In this document: piece by piece, positions 6,770-50,880 of the stretch
How the letters are laid out: each line of letters opens with the position of its first letter
Position numbering within the stretch: the first letter of the stretch is position 1
Assembly: GCA_946811695.1 (NCBI GenBank)
Contig: OX328124.1
Coordinates: forward strand, 98,690,547 to 98,754,546
DNA: 64,000 nucleotides
Direction: 5' to 3'
From: Gonocerus acuteangulatus
Lineage: Eukaryota; Arthropoda; Insecta; Hemiptera; Coreidae
Translations under genes and position numbers: made by a program
Notes under the pieces: generated by a model
What the model was told of the DNA's origin: nothing
The model's database searches: none
Seen by the model: only the letters and a program-made list of their open reading frames with translations

Positions 6770-6865
6770 TATTTACATACCTCGATTTGAGGGCATTGCC
6801 CTATACAAAGGGGTGTGTGCTTACTATTTGACGGATTAATAAAAATTAAGAACTAACAGAAATAA
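6770..6865 (-). mobile_element. 3' end of a LINE, separated from its body by a Penelope insertion
   Basis: Taken together with 9004-9310, this is the 3' untranslated end of a minus-strand LINE, finishing in an A/T-rich tail (AATAAATGAATAC-like). The 12 bp TAACAGAAATAA at 6854-6865 recur at 8992-9003, so the two parts were contiguous before the insertion. Confidence 0.55.
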
Positions 6866-6969
6866 TCATGATGATTAGATAGTTAGCCGTCGAGGTGATA
6901 AGTACAGATGGAATGGTTGGGATTCGGCTAAATAAACCTCAATATGATTTTGTTTTAAAAAAATCTATA

Positions 6970-7017
6970 TTTCGGACGTTTCGGCTACTCATTGGTAGCC
7001 TTCGTCAGCTAAAATGA
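6970..7017 (-). ncRNA. Hammerhead ribozyme motif (type I), left Penelope arm
   Basis: On the minus strand: CTGACGA (complement of 7002-7008), a 6-bp stem II GGCTAC/GTAGCC with a 6-nt loop, then GAAAC and GTC. These are the conserved CUGANGA, GAAA and cleavage-triplet elements. Stem III is the self-complementary ACGT, so folding as a dimer is likely. Known of the family: Penelope-like terminal repeats often carry such minimal hammerheads. Confidence 0.8.
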
Positions 7018-7515
7018 CAAAAAAAGAAATTAATACAGAAACAAACAAGAAAAATTTATAATTGTGATAGTTAACAGAACTATAGATACAGTTTAACTTA
7101 TAACAGAACATATCGTCTTAAAATTCTTAGAATGAGTAGAATGAAAAAGAAAATAGGTACAGTAATTGATTTTAATAGTAATTAGTAACATTAATTGATT
7201 TTACAAAGAAATAAGAGAACTATATACCAATGACAAATATAGTAGCTAATAGTAACATTAATTAATTTTACAAAGAAATAAGATACTACATACCAATGGA
7301 AATGCCGAGCGGCAGAGGAAGACCAAGGTTGGCAATTAAGTAACCATTGTGAAAGTGTCTAAGGAAAAAAGGAATCTGCAAGGGGTATATGTAACTGGAA
7401 ACAGCAAGAGGTGGGGGAAACGGGCGGTAGGATCAAACAGATGTTTATGACATTTTATGACAGGAAAGGAGAAAAAGGTGTTAATGGAAGGATACCCAAG
7501 GGGCAAGGTAAAAAT

Positions 7516-7959
7516 CTAGGTAGGTGGTCGGGCGAGTATTTGGAAAATATTAGCGTACATAGGAGAAATGCCTTGTTGGTCAGTTTTGTAATTTATATTG
7601 TTTTTGTTTAAGTTTATGTGTACACATTCCGAGATCTGTAGTCTTTTTTTGTTACGTTGTGTAGAAAGAATTTTCGTGTCGTCGAAGTTAAAAGTGTGTT
7701 TTTGTGTAATGGCGTGTTTTGCAAGTGCAGATTTATCTATTTCTTTATTAGTGATGGTTCGTTTATGTTGTGTAAGACGTGAGTGAATGTCATTTATGGT
7801 TTCTCCTATGTATACACCATTACAGGAAGGGGTTTGGCAAGGGACTTGGTAAACACATCGGTTGGTATGTTCAAAAGGGATGGGATCTTTGAGTTTGGTG
7901 TAGAGGGTTTTGAGTTTGTTGGTAGTTTTCAAACCAAAGTTTAGGGAAGGGCAGATATT
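7516..7959 (-). CDS. Penelope-like element C-terminus with GIY-YIG endonuclease, 5'-truncated (left arm)
   Basis: 148 codons open to a stop. Order: a linker segment rich in Lys (KLKTLYTKLKDPIP), a Cys-containing VYQVPC..PSC stretch, then the GIY-YIG signature seen as GVYIGET, a downstream Arg/His block (RLTQHK), and SALAKHA. In Penelope-like elements this domain nicks the target DNA for reverse transcription. The reverse transcriptase part is missing because the arm is cut at the palindrome centre. It cannot encode a full enzyme. The domain call is secure; catalytic state is not testable here. Confidence 0.85.
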   Translation of the reverse strand, partial: NICPSLNFGLKTTNKLKTLYTKLKDPIPFEHTNRCVYQVPCQTPSCNGVYIGETINDIHSRLTQHKRTITNKEIDKSALAKHAITQKHTFNFDDTKILSTQRNKKRLQISECVHINLNKNNINYKTDQQGISPMYANIFQILARPPT

Positions 7960-7965
7960 TTACCT

Positions 7966-8376
7966 ACTACCAACAAACTCAAAACCCTCTACACCAAACT
8001 CAAAGATCCCATCCCTTTTGAACATACCAACCGATGTGTTTACCAAGTCCCTTGCCAAACCCCTTCCTGTAATGGTGTATACATAGGAGAAACCATAAAT
8101 GACATTCACTCACGTCTTACACAACATAAACGAACCATCACTAATAAAGAAATAGATAAATCTGCACTTGCAAAACACGCCATTACACAAAAACACACTT
8201 TTAACTTCGACGACACGAAAATTCTTTCTACACAACGTAACAAAAAAAGACTACAGATCTCGGAATGTGTACACATAAACTTAAACAAAAACAATATAAA
8301 TTACAAAACTGACCAACAAGGCATTTCTCCTATGTACGCTAATATTTTCCAAATACTCGCCCGACCACCTACCTAG
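7966..8376 (+). CDS. Penelope-like element C-terminus with GIY-YIG endonuclease, 5'-truncated (right arm)
   Basis: Mirror copy of the left-arm fragment, 137 codons, starting at TTNKLKTLY and ending at the same stop. It carries the same GVYIGET and RLTQHK motifs. It lacks the 11 further upstream codons that the left arm has across the centre, so the two arms were truncated at slightly different points. No start codon or promoter of its own is visible. Confidence 0.85.
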   Translation, partial: TTNKLKTLYTKLKDPIPFEHTNRCVYQVPCQTPSCNGVYIGETINDIHSRLTQHKRTITNKEIDKSALAKHAITQKHTFNFDDTKILSTQRNKKRLQISECVHINLNKNNINYKTDQQGISPMYANIFQILARPPT

Positions 8377-8875
8377 ATTTTTACCTTGCCCCTTGGGTAT
8401 CCTTCCATTAACACCTTTTTCTCCTTTCCTGTCATAAAATGTCATAAACATCTGTTTGATCCTACCGCCCGTTTCCCCCACCTCTTGCTGTTTCCAGTTA
8501 CATATACCCCTTGCAGATTCCTTTTTTCCTTAGACACTTTCACAATGGTTACTTAATTGCCAACCTTGGTCTTCCTCTGCCGCTCGGCATTTCCATTGGT
8601 ATGTAGTATCTTATTTCTTTGTAAAATTAATTAATGTTACTATTAGCTACTATATTTGTCATTGGTATATAGTTCTCTTATTTCTTTGTAAAATCAATTA
8701 ATGTTACTAATTACTATTAAAATCAATTACTGTACCTATTTTCTTTTTCATTCTACTCATTCTAAGAATTTTAAGACGATATGTTCTGTTATAAGTTAAA
8801 CTGTATCTAAAGTTCTGTTAACTATCACAATTATAAATTTTTCTTGTTTGTTTCTGTATTAATTTCTTTTTTTGT

Positions 8876-8922
8876 CATTTTAGCTGACGAAGGCTACCAA
8901 TGAGTAGCCGAAACGTCCGAAA
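8876..8922 (+). ncRNA. Hammerhead ribozyme motif (type I), right Penelope arm
   Basis: CTGACGA 8884-8890, stem II GGCTAC 8892-8897 with GTAGCC 8904-8909 (loop CAATGA), GAAAC 8910-8914, cleavage triplet GTC 8915-8917. Stem I pairs partly (UUU with AAA beyond a G-C pair). Stem III is only the palindrome ACGT, as in dimer-active minimal hammerheads. Confidence 0.82.
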
Positions 8923-9066
8923 TATAGATTTTTTTAAAACAAAATCATATTGAGGTTTATTTAGCCGAATCCCAACCATTCCATCTGTACTTAACAGAAA
9001 TAAGATAGAAATAGAAACATCATAGGTCATATAAATTAAATATGCCATAGTTTGTTCCATTTTAGC

Positions 9067-12945: not shown

Positions 12946-12984
12946 GCCCTGATGAAGGCTTGAAGTTCAAGCCGAAACGTCGGC
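12946..12984 (+). ncRNA. Hammerhead ribozyme motif (type I), intact core
   Basis: CTGATGA 12949-12955; stem II GGCTTG 12957-12962 with CAAGCC 12968-12973, 5-nt loop; GAAAC 12974-12978; cleavage triplet GTC 12979-12981; stem I GCC 12946-12948 with GGC 12982-12984. All conserved core bases are present. Stem III is the self-complementary ACGT. Confidence 0.87.
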
Positions 12985-13072
12985 ACAATAAAACCATTTT
13001 CAATGTAAAATGTAGTTTTATTAAGAAGCGGTGACCGAACCCCGACAATCCCTACCTTAAAATGATTACTTT

Positions 13073-24170: not shown

Positions 24171-24625
24171 CAATTGAAATTTTATAGGTATTTAAATGTG
24201 GAGAACCGAATACTTCAACCGTATTTGAGGTTCCTCTCCGAAATGTGGGTTCTAGACAATTTTGACCTAGCCTATGACACTCCCTGGATCAAAACCTACG
24301 TGTGTGCCAAGTTTGGTCAAAATTGGTCAACCGGTGTGGACTTGTATAAGGAACAAACAGACAAGCAGACAGCTGATAGACGATATCGATCTAGCCTAAG
24401 AAATTCCCCGTATCAAGGCATACCTCTGTGCTACGTTTAGTCAAAATCGGTCGAATGGTGTGGATTTGTATATCGAACAAACATACAGACAGACATCTGG
24501 TAGACGATTTTGACCTAGCCTATTCCCCGGATGAAGACCTAACCAGGTTTGATCAAAATCGGTCAAAAGATGTGGATTTGTATAAGGAACAAACAGACAT
24601 GCAAACATCTGATTTTTATATATAA
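24170..24625 (+). repeat. Degenerate tandem repeat, about 110-bp unit
   Basis: Three units share GTCAAAATCGGTC, GTGTGGATTTGTATA, GAACAAACAGACA and TTTTGACCTAGCCTATT. A reverse relative lies at about 38250-38400. Overlapping open frames reflect the repeat, not genes. Confidence 0.65.
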
Positions 24626-40042: not shown

Positions 40043-40679
40043 TATTATTCCATAGAAAATTTGGTGAACATTTTTCCGATCAGTTCTTTTATTCACTGCT
40101 ATTTTCGAATTTTTTAAAATATAAATATTTTATTTTATTTTTCTTTTCAGGGTATTTCTTTCTTTATTTAATATTTTGAATTCTTTGAAATTGAAACTGT
40201 GTTTTTTTGTTATTGCATGATCCGTCAATGCTGTACCGTTTTCTTGTGTTTCAATGCTCTTTACGTGTTGTATAATTCTTTTACCTAATAATTGCGCAGA
40301 TTCCCCAATATAACATTTGTTACAGTCGTTGCAGTTGATTTTATAAATATCTTTTATTGAACTTGATGCTTTAACCCTGTCTTTAATATTACTAAATACA
40401 TTGTTTATTGTATATTTATATTTCCAGCCAATTTTACAAACATCTTTACATATTGTTTTTATTTTGTTTTCTATAAGAGGACGATAATCGAAAGTAAAAT
40501 ATTGCTTAATTGGATTTACATCTTTGTCAATACTGTTATTTAAAACCAGTTGTTTCCTTTTTTGTAAAAATAAGTGATTATTTAACGTGGTTTCTTCTAA
40601 TCTGCCGTTATTTTTAATGAAAAAATGTTTAATATTAGTTTGCACCAATAATCTTTGTTTTTTGTTCGATATATCGGAA

Positions 40680-40705
<26 letters not shown>
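40043..40705 (-). pseudogene. Penelope-like GIY-YIG endonuclease part, frame broken
   Basis: The reading frame reopens one base out of phase with the reverse transcriptase near 40690-40710. It runs through a linker rich in Lys/Asn to DIYKINCNDCNKCYIGES (the GIY-YIG signature as CYIGES), then RIIQHVKS and LTDHAITKKHSFNF. An in-frame TAA at 40130-40132 cuts the last roughly 30 codons, which continue as LKNSKIAVNKRTD. With a frameshift and a stop the protein is probably not made as a fusion. Confidence 0.85.
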
Positions 40706-41930
<1,225 letters not shown>

Positions 41931-46074: not shown

Positions 46075-46640
46075 AACCCCCGCTTTCCGATTGACCGATT
46101 CAGCTCATTTTTACAAAACTTCTTTCTCATGAGTTACCCACGACGTATACCGCGTTTCGTTACAATACAGCAGAAATTACGACCGGTATGAGTATATTAG
46201 GAATTTGGGTCCGGAGTAAACCCCCCCTTCTAATGAACCGATTTAGTTTATTTTTACAACACACATTTACCTGTGGATTAGCACTACGAATACCGAGTTT
46301 CGTCGAAATATACCAAAAATCACGGCTGGTAGTGGCGAATTGGTATTGTGGGTCCAGAGTAAACCCCCCCCCCCCTTCTAATGAACCGATTTAGTTAATT
46401 TTTATATCTCACTTTTCTCTCCATATTACCACTACGAATACACAGTTTCGTTGAAATATAACAAATATTATGGCTGACATAGTCAAATAAGTGTTTTGGG
46501 TTCGGGGTAAACCCCCCCTTCCGGTGGACCGACTTTGGTGGTTAACGAACTCGTTCAATCGTTTGCTAATTGAATGCTATATACCAAGTTTCGTGACGAA
46601 AAAACAAAAACTCTGGCCGCTATCGTGTTAACAGACACAT
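46075..46640. repeat. Tandem repeat of about 143-bp units (four copies)
   Basis: Units begin at a C-run near 46075, 46218, 46361 and 46508. Each has CTTCTAATGAACCGATTTAG (or a variant), ACCACTACGAATAC, AGTTTCGT.GAAATATA and GGGTCCGGAGTAAAC. Copies are diverged. The array ends at (TA)n. A relative of the D2-type end (GGTTAACGAACTCG) closes it. Confidence 0.75.
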
Positions 46641-48920: not shown

Positions 48921-49039
48921 ATAAAAATTCAATTCCACGATTTCTGACCTTTATTTATGTATATTTATTTATTTTTTATAAATATGGCACAGGTCGAAAT
49001 AATAGTACTCCATTTTATGTACTATTTTATTTTTGGCAC

Positions 49040-49081
49040 GCCCAACATGTTTCGTGGCCTTTATGCCACCTCCTCAGGGGC
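49040..49081 (-). ncRNA. Hammerhead ribozyme motif, unit 1 (complete)
   Basis: Minus strand: stem I GCCC/GGGC (49081-49078 with 49043-49040), CTGAGGA, stem II GTGGC/GCCAC with loop ATAAAG, GAAAC, and a self-complementary ACATGT stem III with U at the cleavage position. All core bases are conserved. Confidence 0.87.
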
Positions 49082-49171
49082 CACTAAATCCCCATGTGTG
49101 GATAGCTCGCCACTCATACTAAAAAAAGTATTAGTATGGGTGGCGAGCTATCCACACATGGGGATTTAGTG

Positions 49172-49213
49172 GCCCCTGAGGGGGTGGCATAAAGGCCACG
49201 AAACATGTAGGGC
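49172..49213 (+). ncRNA. Hammerhead ribozyme motif, unit 2 (one core change)
   Basis: Stem I GCCC 49172-49175 with GGGC 49210-49213; stem II GTGGC 49184-49188 with GCCAC 49195-49199; GAAAC 49200-49204; ACATGT intact. The CUGANGA box reads CTGAGGG, losing the last A, which should impair catalysis. Confidence 0.8.
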
Positions 49214-49336
49214 GTGCCAAAAATAAAATAGTACATAAAATGGAGTACTATTATTTCGACCTGTGCCATATTTATAAAAAATAAATAAATAAGTATTAGT
49301 ATGGGTGGCGAGCTAGCCACACTTGGGGATTTAGTG

Positions 49337-49378
49337 GCCCCTGAGGAGGTGGCATAAAGGCCACGAAACATTTAGGGC
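49337..49378 (+). ncRNA. Hammerhead ribozyme motif, unit 3 (stem III change)
   Basis: CTGAGGA 49341-49347, stem II GTGGC 49349-49353 with GCCAC 49360-49364, GAAAC 49365-49369, stem I GCCC with GGGC 49375-49378. The stem III palindrome is mutated to ACATTT, so dimer pairing is weakened. Confidence 0.8.
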
Positions 49379-49445
49379 GTGCCAAAAATAAAATAGTACG
49401 TAAAATGGAGTACTATTATTTCGACCTGTGCCATATTTATATATA

Positions 49446-50880
49446 AAAAATATATATATATATATATAAAAATATAAATATTAGTAAATTAGGCTGAATG
49501 TAAAAATAATATAAAAACTATTAACTACAAACTATAAATGGTTAAATCACTACCGTTTTAATAAAATATTTCAGCGAATATAAATAATTATTAAAAATAT
49601 CGTAATGTAATGGTAGCTAATGCAATAGGCTCATTTAACAGTTTTCATGATATATAAAGTAATACATATGCCATTTTTTGAATTCAGATTTGCCCATGAA
49701 ATTTTTGCTCTCCGATATTGTGGTATTAAAATTTATGGTGTTATATAAAATTGCGTTTATGATTGGGGTCGGCGTTGTTCATGGTCATTAAATAACCCAG
49801 ATATTTTTACTAGCGCAGAGATGAACGTTAAAAGTACTTAGAAAAATTACTTGTACCTATTAAAGTACTGGAGTAACTTGGGTAGTTGTAAGCCTTCACG
49901 GAGGACATTATGGAACAAATGCTCTGAAAGTGTACATCCATAAAACCTTTTATGAAAGAAAAGGCTTTTTTTATTTCACCCAACGAAAAAAAAAATTCCG
50001 TCTCTGATTTATATAAATGTACGGTACGTATGTAAAGTCATAATTTATTTAAATGCACATATAACCTGCCTGAATAAAAAAAAAAGTAATTCATATTTAA
50101 ATGCTACTAAAAAATTGAAATTTATGACTTTTAAATTGTTTCCCAATAGATTATTAAAATAAGGCAATTCTATTCCATGCTAATTGGCTTGGTAGTTTAT
50201 CCTCCATTCCTGTTTTATTTATTTTGTGGGAAAATATCAATTACATATGTATTATTAAAGAACTTTACATAAGAAGAAAATTTCAATAAATTTTACATTT
50301 TATCTTACAATTTTTTAAGTACAAGTCCACTAATTCAGATAGACGAATTTCCTACAACATAAAGTCAAATAACGTAATGTATTCCAAACCTGGACTCTCA
50401 TGTCGTACAAACAATTATATGCATACCCAAAACAATAAACTCCGTAACATATTCAGAGCTAATGAATGAGTTTCATTGTGAAAATCAGTTTAGTGAGAGC
50501 GAGGGTTTACTTTGTAATTGAATTATTAAATTGCTTGTACTTTGAGTAACGTGTGCTTACGTCAAACTCAATATTCCTTGGCAACTAATGGGAAAATATA
50601 CACATAATTAAAAACCGGAAAAAGGTAGTTAATAAAAAAAAACTAAAAATAAATATATGAATAAAATATTTTTTAACGTTATAGAAAATATGAAATAATT
50701 ACTTAAATAAAAAAAAAATTACAAGGACTTCTGTTGTAAAATCGACATTTGCTCTAAAACGATCGATTTTAAACAGCTGATCTGCAGTAGCCATGTTTGA
50801 TCTTGTCAGCTTACAACTTGGCCCCGCCTGCTCAAGATTCTCGAAGGTGAAGGCTGTATAATATAATATTAATTTAAGTG
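49446..50880. other. No recognised feature
   Basis: AT-rich text with short A- and TA-runs; no gene-like signal. Confidence 0.4.

Follow-up and report, generated by a model that had tools for sequence, protein, structure and literature searches.

A hammerhead-bearing 165-bp repeat of Gonocerus acuteangulatus as a probable retrocopy of a spliced PLE leader

What kind of element left three 165-bp units with hammerhead-like cores, one inverted and two in tandem, in the genome of Gonocerus acuteangulatus? The units lie in a stretch of 64,000 nucleotides (assembly GCA_946811695.1, contig OX328124.1, positions 98,690,547 to 98,754,546, forward strand), which we call the window. A sequence-only reading had taken them for an animal retrozyme, that is, for tandem units that are transcribed, cut by the hammerhead into monomers, circularised and reverse transcribed. 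We propose instead that the repeat is a retrocopy of the leader of a Penelope-like element (PLE), made by the PLE enzyme from spliced mRNA, and assign a probability of about 0.88 to this reading.

The window locus and its counterparts in the genome

The three units and their hammerhead-like cores proved to be real and far above chance. Compared with unit 2 (A), the other two units showed 98.1% and 94.5% identity in blastn, and TRF reported a period of 165 with 2.0 copies and 94% matches. Unit A begins with the base that, in the parent PLE described below, is the A of an Inr-like TCAGTCT. The whole element extends from approximately 48928 to 49463 and is larger than the previously delimited 48945..49445; its features are listed in Table 1. 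Two other tandem repeats of the window, at 24253-24522 (124 bp) and 46221-46518 (148 bp), comprise about two copies each and, as far as seen, have no connection to the 165-bp unit.

Table 1. Positions of the leader copies, hammerhead-like motifs and PLE features in the window
Feature	Position	Strand	Remark
Candidate TSD, left, ATATAAAAA	48919..48927	.	low complexity, weak
One-sided 34-bp 'tail' TACATAAATAAAGGTCAGAAATCGTGGAATTGAA	48928..48961	-	left side only; in the parent, ends 1 nt before the start codon
Unit 1, probable spliced PLE leader copy, inverted arm	48962..49122	-	exon junction 49091/49090
Unit 2 (A), probable spliced PLE leader copy	49127-49292	+	exon 1/exon 2 junction 49162/49163
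Unit 3 (B), second direct leader copy (probable)	49292-49456	+	exon junction 49327/49328
Candidate TSD, right, ATATAAAAA	49464..49472	.	weak, low complexity
Hammerhead-like motif, unit 1	49040..49081	-	cleavage triplet GUU; one additional G ahead of helix II
Hammerhead-like motif, unit 2	49172..49213	+	core position A9 changed to G; 66/68 arms have A there
Hammerhead-like motif, unit 3	49337..49378	+	stem III ACATTT
PLE1, 5'-truncated head-to-head copy	6866..8992	.	one-sided tail 6866-6898 (left)
PLE1 TSD AACAGAAATAA, 11 bp	6855-6865 and 8993-9003	.	
PLE1 exon 1 end, intron, and hammerhead from the 3' splice site	8588..8920	+	285-nt intron GTATGT..TTTTAG, 8599-8883
Remnant of another, related PLE	40130-41930	-	RT ORF 40680-41930
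Hammerhead-like motif CTGATGAAGGCTTGAAGTTCAAGCCGAAACGTCGGC	12949-12990	+	degenerate second motif about 100 bp upstream
Hammerhead-like core CTGATGAGCATGTCACC...GAAACG	51629-51590	-	without clear stem I

The 1.106-Gb assembly was searched with the unit, and the best 40 scored of 1517 first-look candidates gave 79 matches. Together, 30 loci from this search and 13 fetched loci, minus three that overlapped, made up 40 distinct loci. In the set of 66 loci used below for the intron, duplicates were recognised by coordinates and by one shared-flank pair, L021/L073. These two loci, on C31 and C6, respectively, share an insertion together with its right flank and represent either a segmental duplication or an assembly duplicate.

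The usual form of the element is a head-to-head inverted pair: arms occurred in both orientations in 29 of the 40 loci and in a single orientation in 11. The search for further 165-bp arrays found a full direct tandem only in the window (1/40 loci), and L042 contains a partial 92-bp tandem. The typical arrangement is thus inverted and not tandem. Exactly one tail was present in 27 of the 29 pairs, and no pair carried tails on both arms. The pair at L020 had no tail detectable within five mismatches, and a diverged tail could be aligned; L036 is a composite pair with two tails on the same strand. The 25-nt core of the tail had 91 exact copies in the genome and its reversed control none.

Target-site duplications (TSDs) were sought at one-tail loci, of which 51 were available; 28 with TA-microsatellite flanks were skipped, leaving 23, and L036 and L040 were excluded as complex. 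Exact TSDs of at least 8 nt (range 8-16 bp) adjoining the tail were found at 13 of the 23 testable loci, as against 18 of 506 mismatched flank pairs; the other ten were without an 8-nt repeat. These TSDs, together with the inverted pairs and the single tail, constitute the insertion signature of PLEs. Inverted arms between TSDs would also suit a DNA transposon, either a palindromic MITE or a foldback element, whose terminal inverted repeats measure 165 bp. Such an element is, however, hardly conceivable here, given that its ends are unequal (one tail), that one-orientation copies exist (11/40 loci), and that an intron has been lost exactly from a retroelement parent.

The ends of the copies were also compared with the predicted hammerhead cut, which falls between unit positions 83 and 84. 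Among 111 arms reaching the 3' region, 69 started at unit positions 1-11 and two at 84-85, beside the cut; the remaining 5' starts were scattered.

The parent PLE, its spliced leader and a second family

A long form of the element was identified at five loci (L046, L050, L051, L059, and L062) among 30 of the 91 tail-core loci. It carries an insert of 154-166 nt between unit positions 36 and 37, which at L051 starts with GTATGTACAATG and ends with TTTTTAG, i.e., as a GT-AG intron. At the same locus, the sequence runs on upstream of the unit's first base (...GCTAGCCTC, then from that base AGTCTTAG...), and an ORF that encodes a GIY-YIG domain terminates further upstream (CKDCNKCYIGES...; 28.9 bits in Pfam, cut-off 22.6). 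A genome search for the parent endonuclease yielded at least 151 matches (150 scored of 13,476 candidates), with open frames of up to 1016 aa. The window itself contains the remnant of another, related PLE, whose RT ORF scored 25.6 bits for PF00078 (cut-off 29.6) and whose GIY-YIG ORF scored 18.4 bits, both below cut-off.

At the tandem junction of L094, all parts share a strand. The stop of one ORF is followed by the initiator-like TCAGTC, exon 1, the intron, the hammerhead-bearing exon 2 and the tail, and the ATG of the next ORF copy stands one base after the tail (MNNSKAEKRRDEELYFEIL...; ORF start MNNSKAEKRRDEEL). TCAGTC(T) is presumably an initiator (Inr-like), as judged from the consensus. 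The parent leader has an exon 1 of 36 nt; the unit begins at the initiator, lacks the intron (exon junction CACATGGG^GATTTAG) and stops roughly 35 nt short of the AUG, and the tailed arm extends to 1 nt before the AUG. Judging from the order at L094, the 165-bp unit is most likely a cDNA-like copy of the spliced PLE 5' leader, and the tail would be the stretch between two reverse-transcription (RT) start points beside the AUG.

Removal of the intron was exact in at least 73 spliced arms from 66 loci (63 arms in the similarity sample and 10 in the tail sample), a count that includes the partial repeats of L042 and leaves aside three apparent intron cases at L001 and L042, which are tandem-unit artefacts. 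The 49 nt lying upstream in the parent had a blastn match in none of 60 spliced arms with an intact 5' end, a comparison blind to very short extensions such as the CCTC in L033, and in all five intron-bearing copies. Introns in retroelements were reportedly a subject of Arkhipova et al. in 2003.

Genome-wide, exact junctions numbered 253 for the spliced and 106 for the unspliced form, the latter figure being inflated by local arrays (46 places among 100 matches listed); the reversed-pattern controls gave 0 and 0. Among the 100 spliced matches listed, at least 18 minus-then-plus pairs within 250 bp and no plus-then-minus pair were counted by eye. The excess of spliced junctions would also suit a self-propagating, non-autonomous PLE family, a 'SINE of Penelope', in which short copies with the initiator are transcribed and mobilised in trans, and the cis signals for the RT start indeed lie inside the unit. 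However, in a tree of poor resolution and unsettled bootstrap, six intron-bearing copies were intermixed with 65 spliced ones, and supported branches forced at least three label changes. Such intermixing is expected if parents keep making new short copies. We regard a family that sustains itself as unlikely and favour direct and repeated copying of the parent's spliced leader.

In a second family in the window, PLE1, a hammerhead follows each of two copies of the endonuclease end of the ORF. The two short ORFs had no Pfam match at E <= 0.01. Its CVYQVPC...GVYIGE motif we take to be that of a PLE, and together with the hammerhead and the anatomy it is the basis on which we call PLE1 a PLE. Elsewhere, the genome contains related open frames as long as 844 aa. 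In the PLE1 leader, GTATGT follows CATTTCCATTG, and TTTTAG directly precedes CTGACGAAGG. The spliced junction CATTTCCATTG^CTGACGAAGGCTACC was predicted beforehand, with 0 of 31 matches in fetched loci showing it. The genome contains 551 copies of the predicted junction CATTTCCATTG^CTGACGAAGG with at most one mismatch, and none of the control. Among 100 matches listed, a count by eye gave at least 24 pairs in minus-plus order within 250 bp and none in the reverse order.

Two PLE1 loci, L095 and L096, are leader-only, spliced and head-to-head with one tail each, and have flanking repeats of 14 and 13 bp, respectively, as read from the printed sequence. Exactly one tail was likewise present in all nine long PLE1 pairs whose two ends could be seen, from 20 fetched loci. 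The hammerhead cut is 75 nt from the tail-less end and 109 nt from the tail end in PLE1, compared with 80 and 114 nt in the unit, and the tail of each family ends no more than a few nt from the start codon. Despite this like spacing, no similarity was seen between the two leader sequences, and the 5' end of PLE1 (AGACAC in L096) is without a TCAGTCT-type initiator.

The hammerhead-like motif and the retrozyme reading

Every unit of the window carries the motif GCCC / CTGAGGA / GTGGC-ATAAAG-GCCAC / GAAAC / GGGC, in RNA form GCCC-CUGAGGA-G-GUGGC-AUAAAG-GCCAC-GAAACAUGUA-GGGC, or one change from it. The sequence-only reading had described the pairing of GCCC with GGGC, helix II and GAAAC correctly; it had overlooked one additional G between CUGAGGA and helix II, present in all three units. 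The two different defects that it had noted in units 2 and 3 are real: the core of unit A reads CTGAGGG, and the helix III segment of unit B reads ACATTTA, compared with ACATGTT in the minus arm and ACATGTA in A. Since both tandem units are defective in the core or in helix III, release of a monomer by two cuts appears unlikely at this locus.

The motif has the core CUGANGA...GAAA and helices I and II of a type I hammerhead, apart from the extra G. A descriptor scan of the window gave three hits, two of them in the repeat units; the third unit was missed through its core change. In 400 simulated windows, any descriptor hit occurred in three and a hit at the stringency of the two unit hits in none. 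Covariance models did not bear out the assignment: no Rfam family exceeded its cut-off on the whole window, and relaxing the threshold to E = 10 brought up no hammerhead model on the unit, the permissive search returning mostly miRNA-like scores from the palindrome. For the PLE1 motif, the covariance model gave 11.3 bits, with a cut-off of 34. In five leader sequences folded, the predicted probability of stem I formation was below 0.07. The variant rate of the motif across 68 arms was 0.0147, compared with 0.0204 upstream and 0.0085 downstream. Thus, the motif is no better conserved than both flanks, and there is no evidence from these arms of selection on the hammerhead.

Four hammerhead families were compared in the genome: that of the unit, that at L019:509, that of PLE1, and that at window position 12949. 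Their helix II sequences differ yet pair, and all four have a single extra purine before helix II. In the related family at L019:509-560 (+), helix II is GUGC/GCAC where the unit has GUGGC/GCCAC, and the core shows the canonical CUGAUGA. The motif at 12949-12990 looks like that of another PLE family. A viroid hammerhead with an extra base, comparable to the extra purine found here, was reportedly described by De la Pena and Flores in 2001. We also considered that the PLE1 hammerhead is assembled by splicing, as the 3' splice site abuts CUGA, and rejected this because stem I was similar before and after splicing on inspection.

The available text of PMC6155905 describes PLE hammerheads as being without helix III. 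The motifs found here agree with such minimal type I hammerheads in their weak helix III, in the self-complementary ACAUGU (ACGU in PLE1) and in their position upstream of the ORF; the additional purine that separates A9 from helix II in the four families of this genome may be a difference. According to PMC11167929, the hammerhead of an Anolis PLE required protein for cleavage and was dispensable for insertion in vitro. In our reading of the sequences, the PLE itself supplies this minimal hammerhead, whose self-cleavage is putative.

These results permit a judgement on the retrozyme reading. This reading was right in that the element is a retroelement that encodes no protein, occurs in many copies and bears a hammerhead-like motif. 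The element also shares with metazoan non-LTR retrozymes the size range of 150-450 bp, the non-coding unit, the hammerhead and the presence of PLEs in the same genome, a coincidence described for retrozymes in the accessible part of PMC7229834. The tandem in the window likewise speaks for a retrozyme. The mechanism does not fit. Unlike those of retrozymes, the units are not tandem as a rule (one full-unit direct tandem in 40 loci), the ribozyme does not set their boundaries (two of 111 copy ends at the cut), and the ribozyme core has an extra base and no stable helix III; stem I is rarely formed in the predicted folds, and the unit equals a spliced PLE leader. We therefore consider a retrozyme very improbable, and the case calls for caution in retrozyme annotation.

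Proposed copying of the leader

The structures described above lead us to propose the following route. Transcription of the PLE mRNA would begin at the initiator, and the mRNA would then be spliced, as the DNA copies imply. The PLE enzyme would cut both strands of an AT-rich target DNA, and RT would start from both ends, at two sites near the AUG rather than at the RNA 3' end. On a monomeric mRNA, starts beside the AUG would allow only the leader to be copied, so that a full element would need a tandem transcript. The inner site would be used on one strand, giving no tail, and the outer site on the other, giving the tail. Both cDNAs would run off the RNA 5' end and be joined head to head, leaving a target duplication, with the hammerhead carried along as part of the leader. 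Start sites beside the AUG would explain why the copies begin at a fixed 5' end, have no intron and are of this size, and why both insert ends correspond to template 3' ends. The assignment of the inner site to one strand and of the outer to the other is what the tail rule suggests.

Parts of this route have a precedent. As reported in the available portion of PMC11167929, the Anolis PLE enzyme cuts and extends both target strands, two RT start sites lie inside the RNA, and the tail is the stretch between them. The accessible text of PMC3846280 describes inverted pLTRs, a single tail and solo pLTRs, leaves undecided whether the template is sense or antisense and spliced or unspliced, and proposes self-priming for the head-to-head junctions. 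Here, too, the palindrome could have formed by self-priming or second-strand copying of one cDNA of the same leader, as proposed for bdelloid Penelope (PMC3846280, in the part available). In 15 of 18 pairs the two arms agreed at the robust subfamily sites, and paired arms were more alike than random re-pairings (0.0022 of permutations were as low), in a comparison that omits four variable A-rich end sites abutting TA-rich flanks. Against this stand the different 3' ends of the two arms (one tail) in 27 of 29 pairs and the three pairs whose arms are of different subfamily type (L005, L007, and L008). We consider self-priming doubtful. One arm may have been copied from the other, or both from sister RNAs. 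The stronger claim that the arms are shown to stem from different RNAs was rejected, as only 3 of 18 pairs differ at robust sites.

With the endonuclease-containing PLEs (Penelope/Poseidon clade; A. vaga Pen2a, Anolis PAc), the family shares a GIY-YIG parent, head-to-head inverted pLTRs, one optional tail of 31-40 bp, a TSD of 8-10 bp and a hammerhead in the pLTR, according to the available parts of PMC3846280 and PMC11167929. It differs from them in that the insert is leader-only with a fixed start and without the intron, whereas published accounts, as far as available, stress intron retention. The discussion in PMC7229834 goes no further than to consider PLEs strong candidates for the mobilisation of small hammerhead elements. 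Searches of the open-access literature, which leaves out most subscription papers, yielded neither an account of spliced leader-only PLE copies nor a tail rule backed by counts. As far as this literature shows, it would be new that PLE enzymes can use spliced sense mRNA and that an insertion receives at most one tail.

Hundreds of copies in one genome thus bear on how PLEs are copied: they indicate that spliced sense RNA can be the template, that RT starts at sites beside the AUG, and that at most one arm receives a tail. Cheap genome-wide tests of these points become possible in any PLE-bearing animal. A broader proposal, to which we would give slightly less than even odds, is that a two-start division of labour on spliced sense mRNA, with one start per target strand, is obligate, that the palindromes are its record, that it applies to PLEs with a leader intron in general, and that some short hammerhead repeats of animals are leader copies.

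The direct tandem in the window would have arisen when the right arm was lengthened by a second leader copy through a template jump. Separately, the exon 1 region of the leader has repeatedly turned into a local satellite, with periods of 83, 92, 43, and 99 bp (L067; L042; G000:C26:5681376-5684075; G000:C26:12221208-12222700); the 43-bp array contains 35 exact matches.
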